Shown in pieces: positions 4,767-27,856 of a stretch of 28,803 nt of DNA. Each line of letters opens with the position of its first letter. Positions within the stretch are counted from its first letter, which is position 1. Below the pieces are notes generated by a model. The model had not been told where the DNA came from and ran no database searches. It saw nothing but the letters and a program-made list of their open reading frames with translations. This DNA is from a virus. Both the position numbers and the translations under genes were made by a program. The DNA lies in IMG/VR virus record IMGVR_UViG_3300030085_003915, positions 3,923 through 32,725 of that record; one strand, written 5' to 3'.

Positions 4767-4867
4767 CAGTCACCTTTTATTATATAGTATACACCACCAA
4801 TCCAACACCATATAGTAATAAACCCTAACAAATAAATTATAGGATTATCAATTAGATGTTGTATCAT
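4766..4867 (-). CDS. 33-residue single-pass membrane microprotein
   Basis: ATG at 4867 lies inside the end of uvsE, and the stop TGA overlaps the glycosylase ATG (TGATG). The peptide has one hydrophobic segment (IIYLLGFITIWCWIGGVYYI) and a short basic/acidic tail. It fills the 80-base gap between uvsE and the glycosylase, and a GGAG motif lies upstream. The chain of overlaps favours translation. Function unknown; similar tiny membrane ORFs occur at 6881 and possibly 8391-8512. Confidence 0.55.
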   Translation of the reverse strand: MIQHLIDNPIIYLLGFITIWCWIGGVYYIIKGD

Positions 4868-5804
4868 CGTGATGTAACTCCATATACTTTTTTACCGCTA
4901 GTTCTTTGTGTTTAGCTTCTACCATAATATCAACATCGTGACCATAGGTATCAATCTTATTGTAGATATAATCAGAGTGAGCTTGTGGTCTGATACTTTC
5001 ATCAAGTTGTTCTTCCCTACGACTCTCACTATAGTGAACAACTGGTACGATGTCGTCAGGCCAAGTAGATATAGCCATTTCTAACGCTTCTCTTTCGGAC
5101 AAATCACCAGTCTGAAATTGATGGTGGTGATAATCAAACACGATAGGTATACCAATCCTCTTGTACACACCCTCATATAAATCTCTAACTGAATACATAC
5201 TAGCTCTATCATCGTTCTCTACGGTGAGTCTACTCTTAACAGAATCAGGTAGTAACTCAAAGTTCTTACAGAAACGTTCCATAGCGGATTCCTTATCACC
5301 ATACGCTCCACCGATGTGAATGTTAATCTTGTTGTACGGTGTACGACTCAAGTCCATCATATCGAAAACGTCCCCGTGGTCGGTTAAGTCGCTAACACAG
5401 TTGGTCACAACGTGGGGATGAGGGGAAGTTAAGACGTTAAAAGGGCCGGGATGAGAGGTAAGTCTAAGGTTATGGGTCTTGGACATTTGACCCGTAGACC
5501 ATAAGTGCTTACGGATTTCCTCTATATCTGGCATATCGTCCCAGTCGTACTCCGATTTCCAGGGGGCAAGGTTTGAGGTTATTCGAAAGAATTGATAATC
5601 GTTAAGGATATTCCAAGAGACTATCTTCTCTAAGTCCTTACAATTATCAAGGGTCTTCTCACTTGCGTAAGACACTCCCCTACTATCAAACGTACGTCTT
5701 ATCATACTTCGACCTGTTGTTATTGGTTGTACTCCTCGTTCTTGTCCACCGTACTTCTGTGGATAAGATAACTGCATGTTAATACAAGCGTAACCTATAT
5801 TCAA
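4848..5804 (-). CDS. uvsE: UV damage endonuclease UvsE/UVDE
   Basis: 318 residues, family-typical length. UVDE enzymes are metal-dependent TIM-barrel nucleases that nick DNA 5' of UV photoproducts in the alternative excision-repair path. Motifs seen: MNIGYACIN at the N-terminus, 'LTSHPGPFNVL', 'NIHIGGAYGDK', the metal-binding 'RLTVENDD' Glu, 'PIVFDYHHHQF' and 'PVVHYSESR', with His and acid residues in the order expected for the metal cluster. The start is TTG at 5804, overlapping the upstream TGA, with GGAG 7 bases before. It is followed by a tiny membrane ORF and a DNA glycosylase. For a phage in sunlit water it is a plausible repair gene. Confidence 0.95.
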   Translation of the reverse strand: MNIGYACINMQLSYPQKYGGQERGVQPITTGRSMIRRTFDSRGVSYASEKTLDNCKDLEKIVSWNILNDYQFFRITSNLAPWKSEYDWDDMPDIEEIRKHLWSTGQMSKTHNLRLTSHPGPFNVLTSPHPHVVTNCVSDLTDHGDVFDMMDLSRTPYNKINIHIGGAYGDKESAMERFCKNFELLPDSVKSRLTVENDDRASMYSVRDLYEGVYKRIGIPIVFDYHHHQFQTGDLSEREALEMAISTWPDDIVPVVHYSESRREEQLDESIRPQAHSDYIYNKIDTYGHDVDIMVEAKHKELAVKKYMELHHDDTTSN

Positions 5805-9518: not shown

Positions 9519-9836
9519 TCACGAAATTTCATAGTCGTAAACTTCCTCAAATTCCTCCGTCTTCAACATCCTGATAGCGTCCCACGTTAACTTGGTACAT
9601 ACCTTAGCACATATCTGACAACCTATACACTCATCGAACCTAACTTGAACAGGTGGTATTGGAATGTTGTACTTGTCAGTCGGGACGGGTTCTATACAAT
9701 CCACGGGACAAAAGGGTACGCAGACTTGACATCCTGTGCAGTTATCCTCGTCTACTACGGCTATTAACTTTGGTTTTTTCTTTTTGTGATTTACTCTTTG
9801 AGCTGGGTCTGGAACTGATTTGTAATGGTCATACAT
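9519..9836 (-). CDS. bacterial-type dicluster ferredoxin (2x[4Fe-4S])
   Basis: 105 residues from ATG 9836, chosen because it overlaps the upstream stop as TAATG; a longer frame to 9956 only adds sequence antisense to gene logic. Two cluster motifs are complete: CTGCQVCVPFCPVDC (about 33-47) and CIGCQICAKVCTKL (about 72-85), both C-x2-C-x2-C-x3-C. A basic N-terminal extension (RVNHKKKKPK) and an acidic C-terminal tail (TEEFEEVYDYE) flank them. Such proteins carry low-potential electrons. Phage ferredoxins known to me are mostly 2Fe-2S plant type, so this is unusual cargo, probably host-derived. The electron partner is unknown. Confidence 0.9.
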   Translation of the reverse strand: MYDHYKSVPDPAQRVNHKKKKPKLIAVVDEDNCTGCQVCVPFCPVDCIEPVPTDKYNIPIPPVQVRFDECIGCQICAKVCTKLTWDAIRMLKTEEFEEVYDYEIS

Positions 9837-10120
9837 TATGGTTGAAACATATCCCATATGTGTTTGAAGAATAACCCTATAAAACCTGTACCCACTATAC
9901 CTCTCCACTTGGACGTGGATTTTCTGAATTGTGTATTTTGTTTTGTTTCCGCCCATAGACCTGTGTGTGGGTCAAACATATTATCCTTGATGAATTTTAA
10001 ATCTGTTCTGTTCTTCATATGTTCAGCTTCATTATGAATTTTTATTTCATTGATAGTATTCTTGATTGTATCTATCTTCTGATGTATTAAGTCAAATTCT
10101 TTTCTATCTGATTGATTCAA
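9836..10120 (-). CDS. coiled-coil protein with C-terminal membrane anchor
   Basis: 94 residues. The start is TTG 10120 with GGAG about 9 bases before. Residues 1-45 form a probable coiled coil (LIHQKIDTIKNTINEIKIHN), followed by a polar linker and a hydrophobic segment at about 74-92 (IVGTGFIGLFFKHIWDMF). Coiled coil plus one C-terminal span is seen in haemolysin XhlA-like phage lysis accessory proteins and in some small tail or membrane-remodelling proteins, but I cannot choose between these. Directly upstream of the ferredoxin with TAATG coupling. Confidence 0.65.
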   Translation of the reverse strand: MNQSDRKEFDLIHQKIDTIKNTINEIKIHNEAEHMKNRTDLKFIKDNMFDPHTGLWAETKQNTQFRKSTSKWRGIVGTGFIGLFFKHIWDMFQP

Positions 10121-15626: not shown

Positions 15627-16465
15627 ATCATTTCCTCTAGTTCTTTAATAGTGTATTGTTCTATTTCATTGGTGTACGAACCACCTTCAACAATTCTTTC
15701 GTGTAAATTCTCGTTCGGTTGTAACCCTATTTCTTTTACTGATAATTTACTACCTTTTGGTAAATACTTGTTGGACATAGCTTCTAGTAGATTTCCCATA
15801 GACGCTGATTTTATGTCCTCAAAATATGGTGTTGAATCATTTGATTTTTCTAAACAATTAAAAATCATATCAACAGATTGTTTTTTAGTCATAAAGAATC
15901 GTGTAGCCGTAGGTTCTGTAATAATAACTTCTTCATTGTTTTTGATTCTACTCTTCCACTTTTCTAAAACAGAATCTACAGAGTAAATTACATTTCCTAA
16001 TCTTACAACCCTATATTTTGTGTCTGGATTAATTTCTTCAAATTCGTTAAATAATCTTTCCATTAAAAACTTTGTAGCTCCGTAATTACCTGAAACTTGT
16101 ACTACTTTATCAGAACTGACTCCTAGTACAAAATCTACATCTAGTGATTCAACTAAAACATTCATAGAACCAAGAATATTTGTGTTAACTGATTCAATAG
16201 CTCCTCCTGATTGCATACCTTGTGCTAAAGCTGTAAGATGAAATACACCTCTCACACCTTTCATAGCTTCTCTAACACGTTCCTTGTCAAGTATGTCACT
16301 AACTAATATTTCTATTTTATACTTCTCTTGTAGTTTCTTTAACTTTTCCTCTGTACGAGATAGGACTAATACTTTACCACCCATCTCAATTATTCGTTTA
16401 CATAACTCATCACCTACGACACCCGTTCCACCAGTCACTAAATACTTTTCACCCTTTATTATCAT
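15623..16465 (-). CDS. CapD/PseB-like extended SDR (nucleotide-sugar dehydratase or epimerase)
   Basis: 280 residues. GGTGVVG at about 12-18 binds NAD(P). The SDR pair is seen in VSSDKVVQVSGNYGATKFLMERL (Ser, then Tyr and Lys), and VVRLGNVIYSV, TRFFMTKKQSVDMI and a near-C-terminal 'LQPNENLHERIV' follow the Polysacc_synt_2 layout of UDP-GlcNAc 4,6-dehydratases/5-epimerases. It is shorter than typical (about 330) and some loops are reduced. It is a divergent paralogue of the gene at 17724-18710, which keeps the family motifs better, so a second, distinct sugar product is possible. Confidence 0.75.
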   Translation of the reverse strand: MIIKGEKYLVTGGTGVVGDELCKRIIEMGGKVLVLSRTEEKLKKLQEKYKIEILVSDILDKERVREAMKGVRGVFHLTALAQGMQSGGAIESVNTNILGSMNVLVESLDVDFVLGVSSDKVVQVSGNYGATKFLMERLFNEFEEINPDTKYRVVRLGNVIYSVDSVLEKWKSRIKNNEEVIITEPTATRFFMTKKQSVDMIFNCLEKSNDSTPYFEDIKSASMGNLLEAMSNKYLPKGSKLSVKEIGLQPNENLHERIVEGGSYTNEIEQYTIKELEEMI

Positions 16466-17724
16466 ATCGAGTCAAATCCCTTCAATTCATCATAGGTATC
16501 AACAACCTGAATCGTTGGGAACGCTATAAGATATTTAAACTTTTTGAATTGTGTTTTTTCTATTATCATTTTTGAATAATTCCATGCAAATATAATTAAC
16601 AAATCAACATCACTATTTTTAAGTGTTTCGACATCAACAATCGGTATATCTGTATTGGCTATATATCTACCACATCTTTCAGGTGATTCATCTACTATAA
16701 ACTTAACAATATTTGAATTTAAATCTGTTAAGTTACAAAACATATTAGCTCTACCAGAAGCTCCATAACCAGCAATAGTGTGATTTTTTTGTAACTCCTT
16801 TATCGTATCATTAAAACTATTGATGTGATTTCTAACATCTTCACCATAACTTCGTAAATATTCAACATTAGCTATAGTCTTGGATTCTAACTCAATTCTA
16901 TCTAAAACTTTTTGTGATTTATTAGGATACCAAATACTTGTATATGAACTCTTCTTTGTAACTGTCACTCTGATAGAACCTGAATGAATTGGTATCTCTT
17001 CAAAATCAACTACTGTCATACCATATTTCTGAAACAAATTATCTAACCCTGTAATTGAGTGATAGTATATGTGTTCGTGGTAAATATTGTCCCATTGTTT
17101 ACCATCAATTAAACTTTGTAAGTAGTGAACTTCAAATACGAAATCACCACCTGGTTTTAACACGTGTTTTATACCCCTAACAACACTTTGAATGTCAGGT
17201 ATATGTGCGAACGTGTTATTTGATAGAACTAAATCATACTTACTTTTAAATTCTTCACCACCAAATGTTTCATCATTAAAATATTCATCATAAACATTTA
17301 AACCTTTATCAACGGCTAACTTTACTATATTTTTAGCTGGGTCTACTCCTTCTACGTTAGCTCCTAGTTGTGATAGTGGTTCTAATAAAACTCCATCATT
17401 ACAACCTATTTCTAGTATGTTTAATCCCTCTACACCATACTTCTCATCTAAACCATAAGCAACATCTTTGAAGTGATTTGATAAACCGACAGAAGAGATA
17501 TACCTATAATCTTCAAATAAAATCTGAGGTTCAATAAATGAATCAGTTTGTACAAGACTACATTTTTTACAAAACAATAAGTTTAACGGATATTTATTTT
17601 CATTCTCTAGTTCTTCTTTCAATGGAAAAACACCAGCTAATGGTACTTTACCTAAACCAAGAACTGATAAGAAATCGGTCTCATCACATCCAGCACAATA
17701 TTTTCTTTTTTTATAACCTATCAC
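16462..17724 (-). CDS. sugar C-methyltransferase (three-domain, SAM-dependent)
   Basis: 420 residues in the layout of NDP-hexose C-methyltransferases (TylC3/NovU-like). N-terminal zinc domain with CAGC (9-12) and CKKC (about 52-55). Central SAM domain with 'LNILEIGCNDGVLLEPL' at about 101, LVLSNNTFAHIPD and 'VLKPGGDFVFEVHYL'. Then HEHIYYHSITGLDNLF, a signature of this family, and a C-terminal Rossmann-like domain with 'AGYGASGRANMFCNL' and KFIVDESPERCGRYI. The expected reaction methylates C3 or C5 of a 4-keto-6-deoxy sugar nucleotide, the kind of product made by the dehydratases beside it. It shares 1-base overlap with the dehydratase at 17724. Confidence 0.85.
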   Translation of the reverse strand: MIGYKKRKYCAGCDETDFLSVLGLGKVPLAGVFPLKEELENENKYPLNLLFCKKCSLVQTDSFIEPQILFEDYRYISSVGLSNHFKDVAYGLDEKYGVEGLNILEIGCNDGVLLEPLSQLGANVEGVDPAKNIVKLAVDKGLNVYDEYFNDETFGGEEFKSKYDLVLSNNTFAHIPDIQSVVRGIKHVLKPGGDFVFEVHYLQSLIDGKQWDNIYHEHIYYHSITGLDNLFQKYGMTVVDFEEIPIHSGSIRVTVTKKSSYTSIWYPNKSQKVLDRIELESKTIANVEYLRSYGEDVRNHINSFNDTIKELQKNHTIAGYGASGRANMFCNLTDLNSNIVKFIVDESPERCGRYIANTDIPIVDVETLKNSDVDLLIIFAWNYSKMIIEKTQFKKFKYLIAFPTIQVVDTYDELKGFDSI

Positions 17725-18710
17725 TAAATTACCCCAGAGTCTTGTAAAAATTTATATGTCTCTGAACTATCCATTAAAGAATCCTTAGAATTATATGACC
17801 ACAACTCATCATTTGTAGATTCAGTTCCAATTAAATAATTTTCGTGGTCTGTAGTTCTTAACCATTCCTCTTCGGATATCAGTTCCTCGTGTAATTTTTC
17901 ACCTGGTCTTATACCAACTACTTTAAGTTCAATTTTTGGTTCGGGTTCCCCATCATTTATAAATTCAAAAGTCAAATTGTGTTGTACTATTTTTTGTTTT
18001 ATAAGACACTTAGCTATATCTGTAACTTTCATAGCTTTAATTTTTGGTACCGCTATCTTACCGTGTGATTTCTCATAGTTGTAAGCCCAATCTATCAAGT
18101 CTGTAGCATCATCTAACGTCAATAAAAATCTTGTCATATCAAGGTGGGTTATTGGTAGGTAGTCTTGACCACTCTCCAACAAACTTTTAAAATACGGAAT
18201 AACGGAACCAGTTGATTCCAATACGTTTCCATATCTTACCATCACAACTTTCGTGTTATCAGAGGATTCAGCATAATTATAATATAATTTTTCACTAATA
18301 GCTTTACACATCCCGTAAATATTAATTGGCTTACAAGCTTTGTCAGTTGATACAAATATCAAAGTCTCTAACTTTTTGTATTCTTGTGTAACCTCAATTA
18401 AATTTTGGTGTCCAAGTATATTAGTTTTTACACTTTCTATAGCATTATCCTCACAAATTGGAACGTGTTTTAACGCGGCTGTATTGATAACCACATCTGG
18501 TTTAAATTTACTGAATGAGTTTTTTATTGAATTTTTATCTCTGATATCACCCAAGTAAGATTTTATTTTGGGATATTTTTTTAATAAATCAACGTGTTTA
18601 TGTTCATCTCTTGAAAAAATCATTATAGTATTTTTTTGATGATATTTTTTAATTAGTGTCTTTCCTAACGCACCAGTTCCACCAATTATTAATATTTTTT
18701 TATTCTCCAT
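17724..18710 (-). CDS. UDP-GlcNAc 4,6-dehydratase family (CapD/PseB/FlaA1-like)
   Basis: 328 residues from ATG 18710; an ATG three bases earlier is also possible but GGAG is better placed for this one. GGTGALGKTL binds NAD(P). Diagnostic runs: 'NTAALKHVPICEDNAIE', 'VSTDKACKPINIYGMCK' (catalytic Tyr and Lys), 'RYGNVLESTGSVIPYF', 'MTRFLLTLDDA' and GIRPGEKLHEELIS. These enzymes turn UDP-GlcNAc into a 4-keto-6-deoxy sugar, sometimes with C5 inversion, feeding pseudaminic, legionaminic or QuiNAc/FucNAc paths. The following C-methyltransferase could use the ketosugar. No aminotransferase with an intact Lys is seen in the window. Confidence 0.88.
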   Translation of the reverse strand: MENKKILIIGGTGALGKTLIKKYHQKNTIMIFSRDEHKHVDLLKKYPKIKSYLGDIRDKNSIKNSFSKFKPDVVINTAALKHVPICEDNAIESVKTNILGHQNLIEVTQEYKKLETLIFVSTDKACKPINIYGMCKAISEKLYYNYAESSDNTKVVMVRYGNVLESTGSVIPYFKSLLESGQDYLPITHLDMTRFLLTLDDATDLIDWAYNYEKSHGKIAVPKIKAMKVTDIAKCLIKQKIVQHNLTFEFINDGEPEPKIELKVVGIRPGEKLHEELISEEEWLRTTDHENYLIGTESTNDELWSYNSKDSLMDSSETYKFLQDSGVI

Positions 18711-19611
18711 CATTACTCCAAGTATTTTTTATATATTCTATGATATCACCCTTTGGTTTCCAACCCAAAACCTCTTGAGCTTTTGTATCGGTATTTAATG
18801 TCTCTCTCATCTCACCTGGTCTAGCTAGAATGTGTTCTTTTGGATAATCTCCAAACGCGTCAACCAATTCATTTATGGAATAATTTTTTCCATTACCTAA
18901 TTCAAAAGACTCTCCATTAATCGAACCATTACCAACATCTAATAAACCATCAGCACATCTAACTAAACCATCGACTATATCTCCAACGTAGGTAAAATCT
19001 CTTCTCTGTTCACCATCACCTGTAATGGTTAATGGTTTACCCTCCCTATGTTGTTTTTCGAATGTACCTAACACATTACAATAACTACCTTCAGTGGCTT
19101 GGTGTTCCCCATACACATTGTAAAATCTACATATCGACATAGGGACGTTAAATAATTTATTATAAAGAACCATTAATTCTTCATTCTGCCATTTACTGAA
19201 TGTATATGGATTAGCATAAACGTCACCACTACAAGATGATGAACCTGAGTATATGACAGGAGTCTTGTTCCTCTTAGCTAAATCTAAGACATTAATTGTT
19301 GCAACTGGACCAGATTTATATGTTGCTACGGGGTCTTTGAATGATGGTACTATTCTCGGTAACGCTGCAAGATGAAATATTAAATCAAAATTATCATCTC
19401 TCCAACGTGGGAAAGTATTAACATCAACATAAATACCAAGAATGTGTTCACTCGATAAGTCATTTTTATAATATTTACAACCATCAATATGATTTTCTTC
19501 TTTACCAGTTGAGTAGTTATCCACCGATGTCACATCGTGTCCGTCTTTAACTAATCTTTTAATTAAATTTGTACCGACAAAACCGGCACCACCTGTTACT
19601 AAGTATTTCAT
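18700..19611 (-). CDS. NAD-dependent epimerase/dehydratase, UDP-glucose 4-epimerase-like
   Basis: 303 residues. GGAGFVGTNL at 7-16 binds NAD, 'FHLAALPRIVPSFKDP' matches the family, and the catalytic set is SGSSSCSGD, then YTFSK (Tyr and Lys). 'YNVYGEHQ', 'TITGDGEQRRDFTYVGDI' and LGWKPK follow in the usual order. Length is typical. Substrate: 4-epimerase of UDP-Glc/GlcNAc is the default, WbpP/Tyv-like alternatives are possible. Overlaps the dehydratase start by 11 bases. Confidence 0.85.
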   Translation of the reverse strand: MKYLVTGGAGFVGTNLIKRLVKDGHDVTSVDNYSTGKEENHIDGCKYYKNDLSSEHILGIYVDVNTFPRWRDDNFDLIFHLAALPRIVPSFKDPVATYKSGPVATINVLDLAKRNKTPVIYSGSSSCSGDVYANPYTFSKWQNEELMVLYNKLFNVPMSICRFYNVYGEHQATEGSYCNVLGTFEKQHREGKPLTITGDGEQRRDFTYVGDIVDGLVRCADGLLDVGNGSINGESFELGNGKNYSINELVDAFGDYPKEHILARPGEMRETLNTDTKAQEVLGWKPKGDIIEYIKNTWSNDGE

Positions 19612-21191: not shown

Positions 21192-22055
21192 TTATAACTT
21201 TATTGATTTGAATGGTTCTCCATTATAAATTTTGATTCCTCTTCTTCGTAAGTAATCTCTTAAATCTTCAGATACATCATTTACATAACCTTCAATTGTA
21301 CGCTCTTCTATATCATAAATAGTCTCAAAATGACTCTGATTCAAAAATATTTTTCCACTTTCGAGATGAAATTTACTTTTTTCATATCTAACTTTTATAC
21401 TACGAGTTATTTTTTTAAACTCACACAATTTAAGCCAGTCTTTGATTATATCCTCTATAATATTTGCTTTTTCATCTTGATTTAATTCTTTAGGATACAC
21501 ATTTTCTTTTATTACCTTACACGGTGAACCAGCTGCAAAACATCCATTTGGTAGACTTCTATTAATAATTGAATTGATTCCTATAACTACATCATTACCA
21601 ATAGTTACGTTAGGTAATACGATACTTCTTGCTGGTAACCAAACATTACTACCAATCTTGACTGGTCCAAAATCTGCTGGAAATCCTTGTAGAACATCTA
21701 ACCAAGCTCCGTGTGTCCAAATCATAACATCACCACCAATACCTGTATCATCACCTATCTCTACTTCCTCAGATGGATTAATAACCGTTCCCTCAAAAAT
21801 ACCAACGTGTTTACCAATCTTAACTCTTGAGTTAGGGCCGTAACACCCACCTCGTCCAATCTCGACTCGTTCGCACATAAACAAATATTCACCAGCTTCA
21901 AATGATGTGCAATTTATTTTAATGTCTTTTGTTAATACAGAATTATCACCAATATGTATTTTTTCTGGACAACGTATTTCTACATTGTCACCTATAACTA
22001 CATTTTTCCCAATCTGTAAATCCTCAGTCTCTAATATTGCGTTTTTACTTATCAT
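21192..22055 (-). CDS. left-handed beta-helix acyltransferase (hexapeptide repeat)
   Basis: 287 residues. N-terminal two thirds consist of hexapeptide turns ('IGKNVVIGDNVEIRCPEKIHIGDN', then IGKHVGIFEGTVI, EIGDDTGIGGDVMIWTHG, KIGSNVWLPARSIVL), ending with the AAGSPCKVIKE tail that closes these helices. The His in 'MIWTHGAW' is a candidate catalytic base. A separate C-terminal domain of about 100 residues follows. Acyl-CoA or acyl-ACP donor and a sugar acceptor are expected. Adjacent to PIG-L deacetylase, so remodelling of an amino sugar's N-acyl group is plausible; O-acetylation is the alternative. Confidence 0.85.
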   Translation of the reverse strand: MISKNAILETEDLQIGKNVVIGDNVEIRCPEKIHIGDNSVLTKDIKINCTSFEAGEYLFMCERVEIGRGGCYGPNSRVKIGKHVGIFEGTVINPSEEVEIGDDTGIGGDVMIWTHGAWLDVLQGFPADFGPVKIGSNVWLPARSIVLPNVTIGNDVVIGINSIINRSLPNGCFAAGSPCKVIKENVYPKELNQDEKANIIEDIIKDWLKLCEFKKITRSIKVRYEKSKFHLESGKIFLNQSHFETIYDIEERTIEGYVNDVSEDLRDYLRRRGIKIYNGEPFKSIKL

Positions 22056-23070
22056 TTTTGAATCTACCAGATTTCATTAATTTCATATCAGATGGACTAT
22101 AATATGGGCCTGGTCTTAATAATTTTAAATCATTATTAATCATTTTACGAACCATTTCTTCAAAAGATGTTTTTGGTTTCCATCCTAACTCTTCTTGAGC
22201 TCTTGTTGAGTCTCCTCTTAAATAAAAAACATCAGCTGGTCTCATATATCTTTCATCTTGTTTAACATATTTAGACCAATCATCAATTCCAACTTCTTTG
22301 AACGAAACATTTAAAAAATCTTCAAGTGTATGAAATTCACTTGTAGCTATAACATAGTTATTTGGTTCGTCTTGTTGTAACATCATCCACATAGCTTCAA
22401 CGTAATCTGGTGCATATCCCCAATCACGTTTGATATCTAAGTTTCCTAAAGTTATGTGGTCTTGTAACCCTAAATGAATTTTAGCAACACCATCTGTAAT
22501 TTTTCTTGTTACAAACTCTCTACCTCTTCGTTCTGATTCGTGATTGAACAATATACCACAAACATTAAACATATCATAAGATTCTCTGTAATTTATACTA
22601 ATCCAATGACCATATAGTTTTGCTACACCGTATGGTGAACGTGGATAAAAAGGTGTATTCTCATTAGCAAAATTTTCCATCTTACCAAACATTTCTGATG
22701 TTGAAGCTTGATAGAACTTTATATTTTTATTATACTGTCTAATAGCTTCTAACATTCTTAAAACACCAGACGCTGTAACTTTTGATGATTGTTCTGGTGT
22801 GTTCCAACTTTCTTTCACGAATGATTGTGCAGCTAAGTTATAAACCTCATCAGGGTCTGACTCCTCAAGTGCTCTAAGTAAAGAGTTTTGGTCGGTTAAA
22901 TCTCCCATTATAAACGTAACTTTACCCTCAAGATGAGAAGTGTTAACCCTATTTTTAGTAGAACATCTTCTCTCTAAACCAAAGACTTCATATCCTTTTT
23001 CTAATAGTAAATCGGCAAGATGACTTCCGTCCATACCAGTTATTCCAGTTATTAGTGCTCTTTTTTTCAT
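22045..23070 (-). CDS. gmd: GDP-mannose 4,6-dehydratase
   Basis: 341 residues, family-typical. The NADP loop is TGITGMDGSHLA (GxxGxxG, Gly9-Gly15). 'GDLTDQNSL', 'EVYNLAAQSFVKESW', the active site 'QASTSEMFGK' (Thr124, Glu126) with YGVAKLYGH (Tyr147, Lys151), 'LFNHESERRGREFVTRKI' and 'NLDIKRDWGYAPDYVEAM' are all diagnostic for Gmd rather than other SDRs. It converts GDP-mannose to GDP-4-keto-6-deoxymannose, the branch point for fucose, colitose, rhamnose and perosamine. The window also contains a ColD-like dehydratase and a Fcl/ColC-like reductase, so the product can be followed further. GDP-mannose must come from the host. Confidence 0.95.
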   Translation of the reverse strand: MKKRALITGITGMDGSHLADLLLEKGYEVFGLERRCSTKNRVNTSHLEGKVTFIMGDLTDQNSLLRALEESDPDEVYNLAAQSFVKESWNTPEQSSKVTASGVLRMLEAIRQYNKNIKFYQASTSEMFGKMENFANENTPFYPRSPYGVAKLYGHWISINYRESYDMFNVCGILFNHESERRGREFVTRKITDGVAKIHLGLQDHITLGNLDIKRDWGYAPDYVEAMWMMLQQDEPNNYVIATSEFHTLEDFLNVSFKEVGIDDWSKYVKQDERYMRPADVFYLRGDSTRAQEELGWKPKTSFEEMVRKMINNDLKLLRPGPYYSPSDMKLMKSGRFKNDK

Positions 23071-24835: not shown

Positions 24836-25837
24836 TTATTTTTCTCGTTTCCAAAAGTCGTAAATACCCTTAGTCAATTCATAGTTAGACCAAAAGAATC
24901 TTTTTCTTTTTGGTTGTTTTTGTGCCCATTCCCACATTTTTGTTAGACCTTCTTCTAAATCTATCTTATGTTTAAAATCTAGTAAGTCGACAGATTTATC
25001 CCAAGTAGACCAAGCATACTTAACCTCGTGTCTTTGTTCTAAGTACTCTGGTTCTAAATCTGTATTGGTTACTTTTAATAAACTATCACACGCTTCGTTT
25101 ATTGTATATTCTTTTATACCACCAAGATTTATTATCTCACCAATACACTCATCATTTTGTGAAGCATTCCAAAGTGGTTTTATTGAATCATCTACATAAC
25201 TAAACGCTCTTTTTTGTTCTCCATCTCCAAAAATAGTGGGTCTCATATTATTGATAATCTGATACATCCAAATACCTAATACATTTCTATATTTGTCCCA
25301 TATATTTTGATTTTTTCCGTAAAAATTGTGTGGTCTAACTATTGTGTAGGGTAATCCGTGTTGTTCATATGCTATCTTTAAGTCTTGTTCTACAGCATAT
25401 TTAGCAATACCATAAGGGTCTATTGGAGCTTGTTTTAAACTCTCATCAAATGGTGGTTCATACTTATCTCCATACACGGACATTGAGCTAGCGAACACAA
25501 ATCTTTTTACATCATACTGAATACTTTTTGTTATTAAATTAGTTGAAACTATTAAATTATTTTCATAATTATACTTTCTAATAAATGGACTCAGTCCTTC
25601 AGCGGCGTAAGCTGCAAAATGGTAAACCACATCAGGTTTTTCTTTCTCAAATACCCCATTTACTTTTTCTAAATCCACTAAATCAAATTTATAAAATTTA
25701 ACATTTTTATTTACGTTTTCAATATAACCACCGCTCAAATCATCTATTCCAACTACTTCGTTGTTCGTGTTTTCTATAACCCAATCAGCTAATCTTGAAC
25801 CGAGTAAACCAGCTACACCTGTAATTAAATACTTCAT
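24836..25837 (-). CDS. NAD-dependent epimerase/dehydratase (GalE-like)
   Basis: 333 residues. GVAGLLGSRL at about 7-16 binds NAD, 'VYHFAAYAAEGLSP' is the AxxA-type motif, and the catalytic set is FASSMSVYGD followed by DPYGIAKYAVE. 'VRPHNFYGKN' and GDGEQKRAFSYVDD are conserved in UDP-hexose 4-epimerases and dTDP-glucose dehydratase relatives. The C-terminus (WEWAQKQPKRKRFFWSNYEL) is extended by about 20 basic residues. Likely a UDP-sugar epimerase; exact sugar unknown. Paralogue of the gene at 18700. Confidence 0.82.
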   Translation of the reverse strand: MKYLITGVAGLLGSRLADWVIENTNNEVVGIDDLSGGYIENVNKNVKFYKFDLVDLEKVNGVFEKEKPDVVYHFAAYAAEGLSPFIRKYNYENNLIVSTNLITKSIQYDVKRFVFASSMSVYGDKYEPPFDESLKQAPIDPYGIAKYAVEQDLKIAYEQHGLPYTIVRPHNFYGKNQNIWDKYRNVLGIWMYQIINNMRPTIFGDGEQKRAFSYVDDSIKPLWNASQNDECIGEIINLGGIKEYTINEACDSLLKVTNTDLEPEYLEQRHEVKYAWSTWDKSVDLLDFKHKIDLEEGLTKMWEWAQKQPKRKRFFWSNYELTKGIYDFWKREK

Positions 25838-26988
25838 TCGTTAATTCCTTCATTAATAATATGAGATACGAATTTTACTTCTTCTATAGTAAGTTTTGGG
25901 TGATTAGGAACATAAAATCCAAACTCATCAATGTCTGTTACATTTGGTAACTTCAAAATACCATATTTCCTTACGTAAAAAGGTTGTGTACCCATTGAAC
26001 CACAAATCATCGGTCTGACCTCAACCTCATTATCTCTTAACCTTTGAACTATCTTGTCTCTGTTAGGATGAATTACAGGATACGCGAAATTAGATGTAAA
26101 TGAGTCCTCTTGTGAGTTCGGTTTCCAATAATCATTTTTGACTACTGTTTGATAAAGATTGTAATTCCGTTGTCTCTTTCTTCCCCAATCATCTAGTTTA
26201 TCAATCTGTGTAAGTCCAATGTAAGCTTGTAAATCAGTTGACCTCATATTAAAACCAGAATGATAAAATGTATATAGTGAATTAAACTCTGTTACGTTCC
26301 ACTCCTTTTGTAACTTGACTTGAGTTTCTTCACTTAAATCTCTATCCCATCCGTGACTTCTTATTGACACTAACAATTCATATAATTTTTTATCATCCGT
26401 TGATATCAAACCACCCTCTATTGTAGAAATGTGATGACCAAAAAACGTAGAAAAACTGGACATACTACCAAATGTTCCAAGTTTTTTCCCTTTATACTCA
26501 CAACCCATTGACTCACAAGTATCCTCAAGTAATATTACATCATACTTGTTACATAAATCTACAATTTTGTCCATATTAGGGACAAGACCCAAAACAGATA
26601 CAAACATTAATACTGACGGTGATTGTTCTTTAAATATTTTTTCTAGGTGTTCTAAATCTGCTGATAAATCATTGAAGTTAGAGTCACAAAGTATTGGGTC
26701 TAATCCAAGTTGTATTACTGGTGCTAAATCAGTAGCCCACGCAACTGATGGTACTACAACTTTATTATTTTTTAGATAATCACCTTGTTGTAAAGCAGAC
26801 AACATCAAAAGATTAGCTGATGAACCTGAATTACAAAATACTGAATATTTTCGTCCTAACCATTTGGAAAACTTTTCTTCAAATTCTAAAGTTACAGGTC
26901 CCTTAGTTAATCTTGGATAAGTTTTTAACCAATCTACTAATCTATCTACGTCTTGATTATCGATTGTATCTTTGACTAAAGTTATCAT
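25834..26988 (-). CDS. colD: PLP-dependent 3-dehydratase, ColD-like (DegT/AHBA_syn fold with Lys-to-His)
   Basis: 384 residues of the DegT/DnrJ/EryC1/StrS fold: PLP-phosphate loop CNSGSSANL (52-60), 'LLEDTCESMG' with the pyridine-N Asp156, and the site normally carrying the PLP lysine, which here reads SFSTFFGHHISTIEGG. Counting back from the EGG, His185 occupies the Lys position. This substitution, with HH and TIEGG around it and a length near 388 aa, is the hallmark of ColD (GDP-4-keto-6-deoxymannose 3-dehydratase), which removes the C3-OH instead of transaminating. RfbH/E1 shares the His but is longer. AGGAG sits six bases before ATG 26988. Gmd and a ColC/Fcl-like gene flank it, matching the colitose path. 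Alternative: a dehydratase for another ketosugar. Confidence 0.8.
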   Translation of the reverse strand: MITLVKDTIDNQDVDRLVDWLKTYPRLTKGPVTLEFEEKFSKWLGRKYSVFCNSGSSANLLMLSALQQGDYLKNNKVVVPSVAWATDLAPVIQLGLDPILCDSNFNDLSADLEHLEKIFKEQSPSVLMFVSVLGLVPNMDKIVDLCNKYDVILLEDTCESMGCEYKGKKLGTFGSMSSFSTFFGHHISTIEGGLISTDDKKLYELLVSIRSHGWDRDLSEETQVKLQKEWNVTEFNSLYTFYHSGFNMRSTDLQAYIGLTQIDKLDDWGRKRQRNYNLYQTVVKNDYWKPNSQEDSFTSNFAYPVIHPNRDKIVQRLRDNEVEVRPMICGSMGTQPFYVRKYGILKLPNVTDIDEFGFYVPNHPKLTIEEVKFVSHIINEGINE

Positions 26989-27856
26989 AAACTCTCCTTA
27001 TACCATTTTCAAGTGAAGTAAATTCAAAATCTTTCATTACCGAAATAAGTTTAGATGAATCAACATCTTTTCTATATTGACCATCAGGTTTTGTGTTGTC
27101 ATAATTAATTTTTAGATTACCTTTTCCACAAGCTTCAATTCCTATTTTTGTTATCTCTTCTATAGAATGCACGTAATCTGGTGCTACATTAAAATTATCT
27201 ACCACGTCATTATCAATCATATATTTTATTACTCTGGCTAAATCTCCAGCGTACATAAACTGTCTTAGTGGTTTACCAGTCCCCCATATCTCTACACTAT
27301 CTTTAGCTTCGTGTATCTTCTTAATTAGTGCTGATACAAAATGACTATGATGTTCTTCGTATTTATCGTGTTCACCGTAAAGATTACAAGGAATTAAATA
27401 AGACCATTGTTTGTTATATTGTTTTTTATAAGAATCTATTTGAGTAGCCATACATCTTTTTGACATAGCATAAGCAAAATTATCAGGTGGTGGTGGCCCG
27501 TTAAATAAAAATTCTTCTTTCATTGGATACGTATCCATCACATCAGGGTAAATACAAGTACTTAGTATCGAAATCACTTTACCAACTTTAAATTGATGAC
27601 ATTTTCTCAAAACATTTGTATTAATCATTATATTTTCTTCGAGATAATCTACTGGATAAGTAATATTATCTAGTATTCCACCGACTCTTGAAGCTAAATG
27701 TATGACAATGTCTGGTCTAACTGAATACATTAATCGGTGAACTTCATAATTTTGAGTTAAATCACAATCTTTTGATGAAATATAAGTAGCTTCAGGTAAA
27801 ATATCTTGTAGATGTTTACCAACTAAACCACTTCCTCCTGTAACTAATATCTTCAT
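26957..27856 (-). CDS. GDP-L-fucose synthase/GDP-L-colitose synthase-like epimerase-reductase
   Basis: 299 residues. VTGGSGLVGKHL at about 5-16 binds NADPH. Catalytic residues are placed as in Fcl: Ser99 and Cys101 in LSTCIYPD, Tyr129 and Lys133 in YAMSK, then 'IPCNLYGEHDKYEEHHSHFVSALI' carrying the His expected for epimerisation. 'WGTGKPLRQFMYAGDLA' and KPDGQYRKD are diagnostic for the Fcl/WcaG/ColC branch. It epimerises C3/C5 and reduces C4 in the fucose path, or C5 and C4 in the colitose path; sequence alone does not separate them, but the adjacent ColD-like gene favours colitose. TAATG overlap with the upstream transferase. Confidence 0.85.
   Translation of the reverse strand: MKILVTGGSGLVGKHLQDILPEATYISSKDCDLTQNYEVHRLMYSVRPDIVIHLASRVGGILDNITYPVDYLEENIMINTNVLRKCHQFKVGKVISILSTCIYPDVMDTYPMKEEFLFNGPPPPDNFAYAMSKRCMATQIDSYKKQYNKQWSYLIPCNLYGEHDKYEEHHSHFVSALIKKIHEAKDSVEIWGTGKPLRQFMYAGDLARVIKYMIDNDVVDNFNVAPDYVHSIEEITKIGIEACGKGNLKINYDNTKPDGQYRKDVDSSKLISVMKDFEFTSLENGIRRVYDNFSQRYNR

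Follow-up and report, generated by a model that had tools for sequence, protein, structure and literature searches.

The window, i.e., the whole stretch of 28,803 nucleotides analyzed here, is part of an 85.5-kb virus fragment that contains T4-like replication genes (DNA polymerase, clamp loader, DnaB-like helicase, SSB, and exonuclease), and the carrier is a marine T4-like phage. An uninterrupted open reading frame, complete from ATG to stop, occupies positions 25834–26988 on the minus strand. Its product of 384 aa belongs to the DegT_DnrJ_EryC1 family (PF01041, 222 bits in Pfam) and is predicted from this family match, its similarity to ColD, a structural model, and its position in a tree to be a GDP-4-keto-6-deoxy-mannose 3-dehydratase. 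Directly upstream on the same strand is a gene for a GDP-L-fucose-synthase-like (Fcl-like) epimerase/reductase (26957–27856), the end of which overlaps the start of the 3-dehydratase gene by 32 nt. At the other end the stop codon is overlapped by 4 nt by a UDP-glucose-4-epimerase-like SDR gene (24836–25837, minus), which is kept in locus L095 and shows no general linkage to the 3-dehydratase among 88 related viral loci. A gmd gene, encoding GDP-mannose 4,6-dehydratase (22045–23070, minus), lies 2.8 kb downstream of the 3-dehydratase gene with three genes in between; its product scores 410 bits against TIGR01472, for which the cut-off is 415 (E = 7e-123), and matches PDB 1rpn with E = 5e-111.

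The residue that normally forms the Schiff base with PLP in this family is His185 in the window enzyme (codon 26434–26436, minus strand). The motif reads FGHHISTIEGG, with G184, H185, H186, and E191, so that H185 and H186 stand six and five residues ahead of the glutamate, just as the initial annotation had counted for His185 from the shorter form GHHISTIEGG. In phmmer comparisons with solved structures the counterpart of H185 was H188 in ColD and, in E1, the first His of the AHHIT motif; in an alignment that included E1 as well as perosamine-synthase-like and other Lys-type proteins, H185 fell in the Lys column. The Lys-type members have their Lys in this same column, as in the perosamine-synthase-like protein of locus L181 (RKTITTGEGG) and in the paralogue of the virus itself (L002), and therefore no other Schiff-base Lys is implied. 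This second DegT gene, at record positions 41339–42421, reads NKKHISTGEGG and serves as an internal control for the column by sequence. Unlike the Lys-type aminotransferases with their internal-aldimine Lys, the window enzyme has no Lys aligned at or near the Schiff-base position by alignment or by inspection of the sequence, and an alternative Schiff-base Lys was rejected on this ground; the proposed comparison with ColD His188 and the E1/RfbH type thus matched H185 to the catalytic His and placed no Lys elsewhere. All 168 aligned His-type relatives, viral and cellular, have His at position 185, more than chance would give: they make up 89 of the 91 viral-side rows and all 79 scorable cellular rows, and the two rows that differ are the Lys paralogue and a duplicate entry of it. 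Position 186 varies among H, T, Q, and A in the same rows; the aligned set was partly picked by an HH pattern, and the HT, HQ, and HA members entered through the other pattern. The PLP-phosphate loop (S54-G55-S56-S57-A58-N59) and D156, the pyridine-N contact by homology (codon 26521–26523, minus strand), are also preserved in both the protein and the alignment, in agreement with the initial view that the remaining PLP contacts are intact.

With such residues the protein could still be an inactive leftover, or an aminotransferase using another lysine, since the DegT family consists mostly of aminotransferases and the cyanophage homologues are so annotated. This is highly improbable considering the lack of any Lys at or near the site, the invariance of His185, and the long conserved motifs of the protein family, which reach across phyla. 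Against six relatives (73–84% identical), dN/dS by the Nei–Gojobori method was 0.07–0.12, a rough ratio because dS was high (1.1–1.8). A value of about 0.1 indicates that the gene is maintained, and together with the intact reading frame it led to the rejection of decay.

The branch to which the enzyme belongs is that of ColD. Among solved structures the best match by sequence was ColD (2gms, E = 1.4e-58, phmmer against PDB), with 202 bits for ColD vs. 138 for E1. Structure prediction, as had been suggested, gave a confident AlphaFold (AF2) protein model (pLDDT 95.8, 33-row alignment), for which Foldseek returned ColD first (TM 0.88–0.90), followed by perosamine synthase and E1. In the tree, a quick search without bootstrap in which the supports are SH-aLRT values, the Lys types stood on one side (100) and the His types were divided into an E1/RfbH clade (97) and a ColD clade (97). 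In the latter, the window enzyme and E. coli ColD were joined by 32 further viral and 29 cellular rows; the perosamine-synthase-like proteins were in the outgroup. Since the His is common to the whole ColD and E1 clade, Lys gave way to His long ago, and the change is a shared one rather than a local switch. Thus, of the original statement that the replacement is a functional switch to C3 dehydration and not decay, the latter part is borne out by dN/dS and the intact reading frame, while a switch special to this gene is not.

The window enzyme shares with ColD of E. coli O55 (PDB 2gms/3b8x) the fold, the His at the Lys position, the PLP loop, the Asp, the CESMG motif, the lack of Fe-S cysteines, and the gmd and Fcl/ColC-like partners. 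It differs in being phage-encoded and in the residue before the catalytic His, Gly184 instead of Ser187, and the large clade containing it has E. coli ColD together with a Sulfitobacter homologue as its sister group. Identity to E. coli ColD is only 33% and the substrate could therefore differ. GDP-perosamine synthase (PDB 3bn1) shares the fold and, as judged from homology, the substrate GDP-4-keto-6-deoxymannose, but forms a Schiff base with Lys186 and carries out C4 transamination. E1/RfbH, the CDP-6-deoxy-4-keto-glucose 3-dehydrase (PDB 3bcx), resembles the window enzyme in fold, in having His for Lys, and in C3 deoxygenation, which is a prediction for the window enzyme, but has an N-terminal extension and four Cys for a [2Fe-2S] cluster. 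An iron-sulfur 3-dehydratase of this type acting on a CDP-sugar is suggested by the best NCBIfam match, RfbH, although at 211 bits it did not reach the curated cut-off of 423, and by the deposition of the homologue in cyanophage S-CAM7 as a CDP-sugar 3-dehydrase. However, the four-Cys segment is absent in the alignment, the only cysteines being at 52, 101, 146, 158, 163, and 329, and the PDB bit scores favor ColD. Moreover, the viral E1-type genes, a second large His-type class (L269–L317, with S-H68 as an example), keep the Fe-S cysteines in 46 of 49 cases and have neither gmd (0/49) nor an Fcl-like gene (0/49) nearby. An E1-type assignment is hardly conceivable, and was rejected on the missing cysteines and the separate clade. 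The E1 set came from a scan intended as Lys-type control, which yielded mainly E1-type His proteins and was therefore used as an E1 control; Lys-type loci were too few for a synteny test. The SDR neighbors of the E1-like class checked in two loci were dTDP-glucose 4,6-dehydratases and not CDP-glucose ones. By sequence, the protein is probably a ColD-like C3 dehydratase.

The neighboring genes point to the pathway in which it may act. The Fcl-like protein matches GDP-L-fucose synthase in PDB with E = 9e-62, has an Fcl-type fold and the invariant catalytic residues C101, Y129, K133, and H172, and scores 214 bits against NF047922, far below the curated GDP-L-fucose synthase cut-off of 500. From the PDB match, these residues, and the linkage it is predicted to be a ColC-like GDP-L-colitose synthase; its possible action as ColC on a 3-deoxy substrate is suggested by the genetic linkage, the solved reference being GDP-L-fucose synthase. 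Within about 5 kb of the ColD-type gene, an Fcl-like gene was present in 66 and gmd in 62 of the 88 related viral loci; in 37 the gene immediately upstream was Fcl, and in 26 the one immediately downstream was gmd. These synteny counts contain near-identical contigs and are therefore not independent. The neighboring gmd genes checked scored 380–566 bits against the Gmd model. The search of viral metagenomes that had been proposed initially gave at least 120 stretches with the motif, and among those listed with at least 1.5 kb on both sides gmd or Fcl was found in 43 of 52 loci. Conversely, a His-type DegT gene lies within 5 kb in 77 of the 80 closest viral relatives of the Fcl-like protein, and in two of the other three the DegT gene is cut off at the end of the locus. 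The trio also occurs on Streptomyces and Sulfitobacter plasmids, while some cellular relatives adjoin other 4,6-dehydratases or none. In S-CAM7 the trio is followed by a GT11 glycosyltransferase, which is likewise beside the cassette in L007; no GT11 colitosyl/fucosyltransferase gene was found in the 85.5-kb record. The homologues of S-CAM7 and the ACG-2014f cyanophages are phage-borne with adjacent gmd and Fcl, as is the window enzyme, and have the motif GHHMTTxEGG; they are 32–37% identical to it, and their Fcl belongs to the cyanophage Fcl branch.

One could argue that Gmd and the Fcl-like protein simply make GDP-L-fucose and that the 3-dehydratase serves a separate branch, as Gmd–Fcl pairs without DegT are present in cyanophages P-SSM2, S-SCSM1, S-SRM01, and S-SKS1. 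It is improbable in view of the 32-nt overlap and of the Fcl tree, in which the DegT-linked proteins formed one clade (99) on a long branch from the cyanophage Fcl without DegT; nearly all its members adjoin a His-type DegT gene, one row (L222), a short locus without DegT, having been labeled as linked by default.

The best reading is that the 3-dehydratase, Fcl-like, and gmd genes constitute a phage cassette of the GDP-L-colitose type, and the window protein is very probably the ColD-type 3-dehydratase of such a route, with Gmd and the Fcl-like protein as partners. Homology, catalytic-site residues, fold, synteny, and selection were observed, and from these we infer the reaction, the final sugar, and its biological use. 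ColD removes an oxygen from GDP-4-keto-6-deoxymannose en route to the rare sugar L-colitose, a sugar of bacterial O-antigens. The enzyme, chemistry, and pathway are already known, and the mechanism of ColD and E1 with the role of the His has been reviewed (PMC8987622), while that of the C3-dehydratases of C. jejuni is treated in PMC10440746. By homology with ColD, glutamate would first convert the bound PLP to PMP, which would condense to a ketimine at the C4 keto position of the GDP-4-keto-6-deoxy-D-mannose supplied by the neighboring Gmd. His185, being incapable of forming a PLP Schiff base, would act as the base/acid, taking the methylene proton of PMP with loss of the C3 hydroxyl, and hydrolysis would give GDP-4-keto-3,6-dideoxymannose, PLP, and ammonia with no iron-sulfur cluster involved. 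C5 epimerization and C4 reduction by the Fcl-like protein could then lead to GDP-L-colitose or a close 3,6-dideoxyhexose, which would feed glycosyltransferases of the cluster and allow the phage to change the surface of its host or the glycans that it carries itself.

It is possible, though clearly less likely, that a ColD-type 3-dehydratase here leads to another end product, such as a GDP-linked 3,6-dideoxyheptose, a 4-amino-3,4,6-trideoxy sugar, or, through a further cluster gene, a C-methylated 3,6-dideoxyhexose. C3-dehydratases of C. jejuni, 62–67% identical to ColD, act on GDP-6-deoxy-4-keto-heptose (PMC10440746); the cluster contains a TylC3-like C-methyltransferase and more SDR enzymes; and several relatives have a perosamine-synthase-like DegT gene directly upstream where no Fcl-like gene is present. 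On the other hand, the neighbor in the window is Fcl-like and tightly linked across viruses, and a search of the record, which is a fragment, revealed neither a phosphoheptose isomerase nor a GHMP kinase nor a sugar nucleotidyltransferase. No heptose route is therefore encoded in it, although the host could supply a heptose, and for want of the nucleotidyltransferase GDP-mannose must likewise come from the host.

The initial impression that a Lys-to-His member is unusual in a phage was not confirmed. The exact-motif DNA pattern GHHx[ST]TIEGG was found in at least 120 IMG/VR stretches, all 120 of those listed encoding ColD-type DegT proteins; a profile scan gave at least 583 confirmed relatives; and 70 sequenced phage records matched, mostly cyanophages, 54 of them named Synechococcus phages. 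A common phage gene labeled 'aminotransferase' or 'CDP-sugar dehydrase', under which names cyanophage homologues are already deposited, thereby gets a testable pathway from GDP-mannose to GDP-L-colitose, and the many natural His/Lys sister pairs offer material on the single-residue switch from transamination to dehydration. If the pathway holds, the complete branch leading to a rare surface sugar is present in many phage genomes, a matter of relevance to how competing phages are excluded at the surface, to receptor change, and to the glycosylation of virions. No description of phage-encoded colitose synthesis was found in the open-access literature searched, an incomplete coverage with few subscription journals. 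We give about even chances to the broader proposal that a dedicated colC-colD-gmd cassette, with a virus-specific ColC-like clade, has a major reservoir in large T4-like marine and freshwater phages and serves there to re-coat the host or virion with a 3,6-dideoxyhexose, and that sister loci with ColD and perosamine-synthase-like genes may make GDP-3-deoxyperosamine. To our knowledge, this sugar nucleotide is on record solely as a ligand in a crystal structure (PDB 3dr7).

Several other observations were made. A Lys-type DegT gene with the perosamine-synthase-like motif NKTITCGEGG is directly or closely upstream of the ColD homologue in L104, L110, L112, L120, L121, L129, L144, and L165, possibly a pair for GDP-3-deoxyperosamine; in L104 and L110 the 5 kb around it contain neither gmd nor an Fcl-like gene. 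Contig NZIO01000034.1 (L084), binned as Candidatus Pelagibacter, has an 81% identical gene start and an Fcl-like neighbor, and is probably a phage contig in a Pelagibacter bin, or else a hint to the host. In the window, a C-methyltransferase of the TylC3 kind (Methyltransf_13/14, 16462–17724) adjoins a PseB-like 4,6-dehydratase (17724–18713), perhaps for a branched C-methyl sugar; a UvdE-type UV-damage endonuclease homologue (PF03851) is encoded at 4848–5804 and a protein with a 4Fe-4S dicluster ferredoxin-type domain at 9519–9956. Outside the window, genes for a NeuB-like synthase, a Lys-type DegT protein, and a cytidylyltransferase-like protein are consecutive on the minus strand (L012:9426–12180), resembling a nonulosonic-acid pathway, with a Nol-like carbamoyltransferase beside them. 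Also outside it, record positions 61993–64800 (L013:11494–14301, minus) encode a 936-aa TonB-dependent-receptor-like protein with carboxypeptidase-regulatory, plug, and beta-barrel domains (phrog_5687, function unknown), which is odd in a tailed phage and hints at a Bacteroidota-like host.
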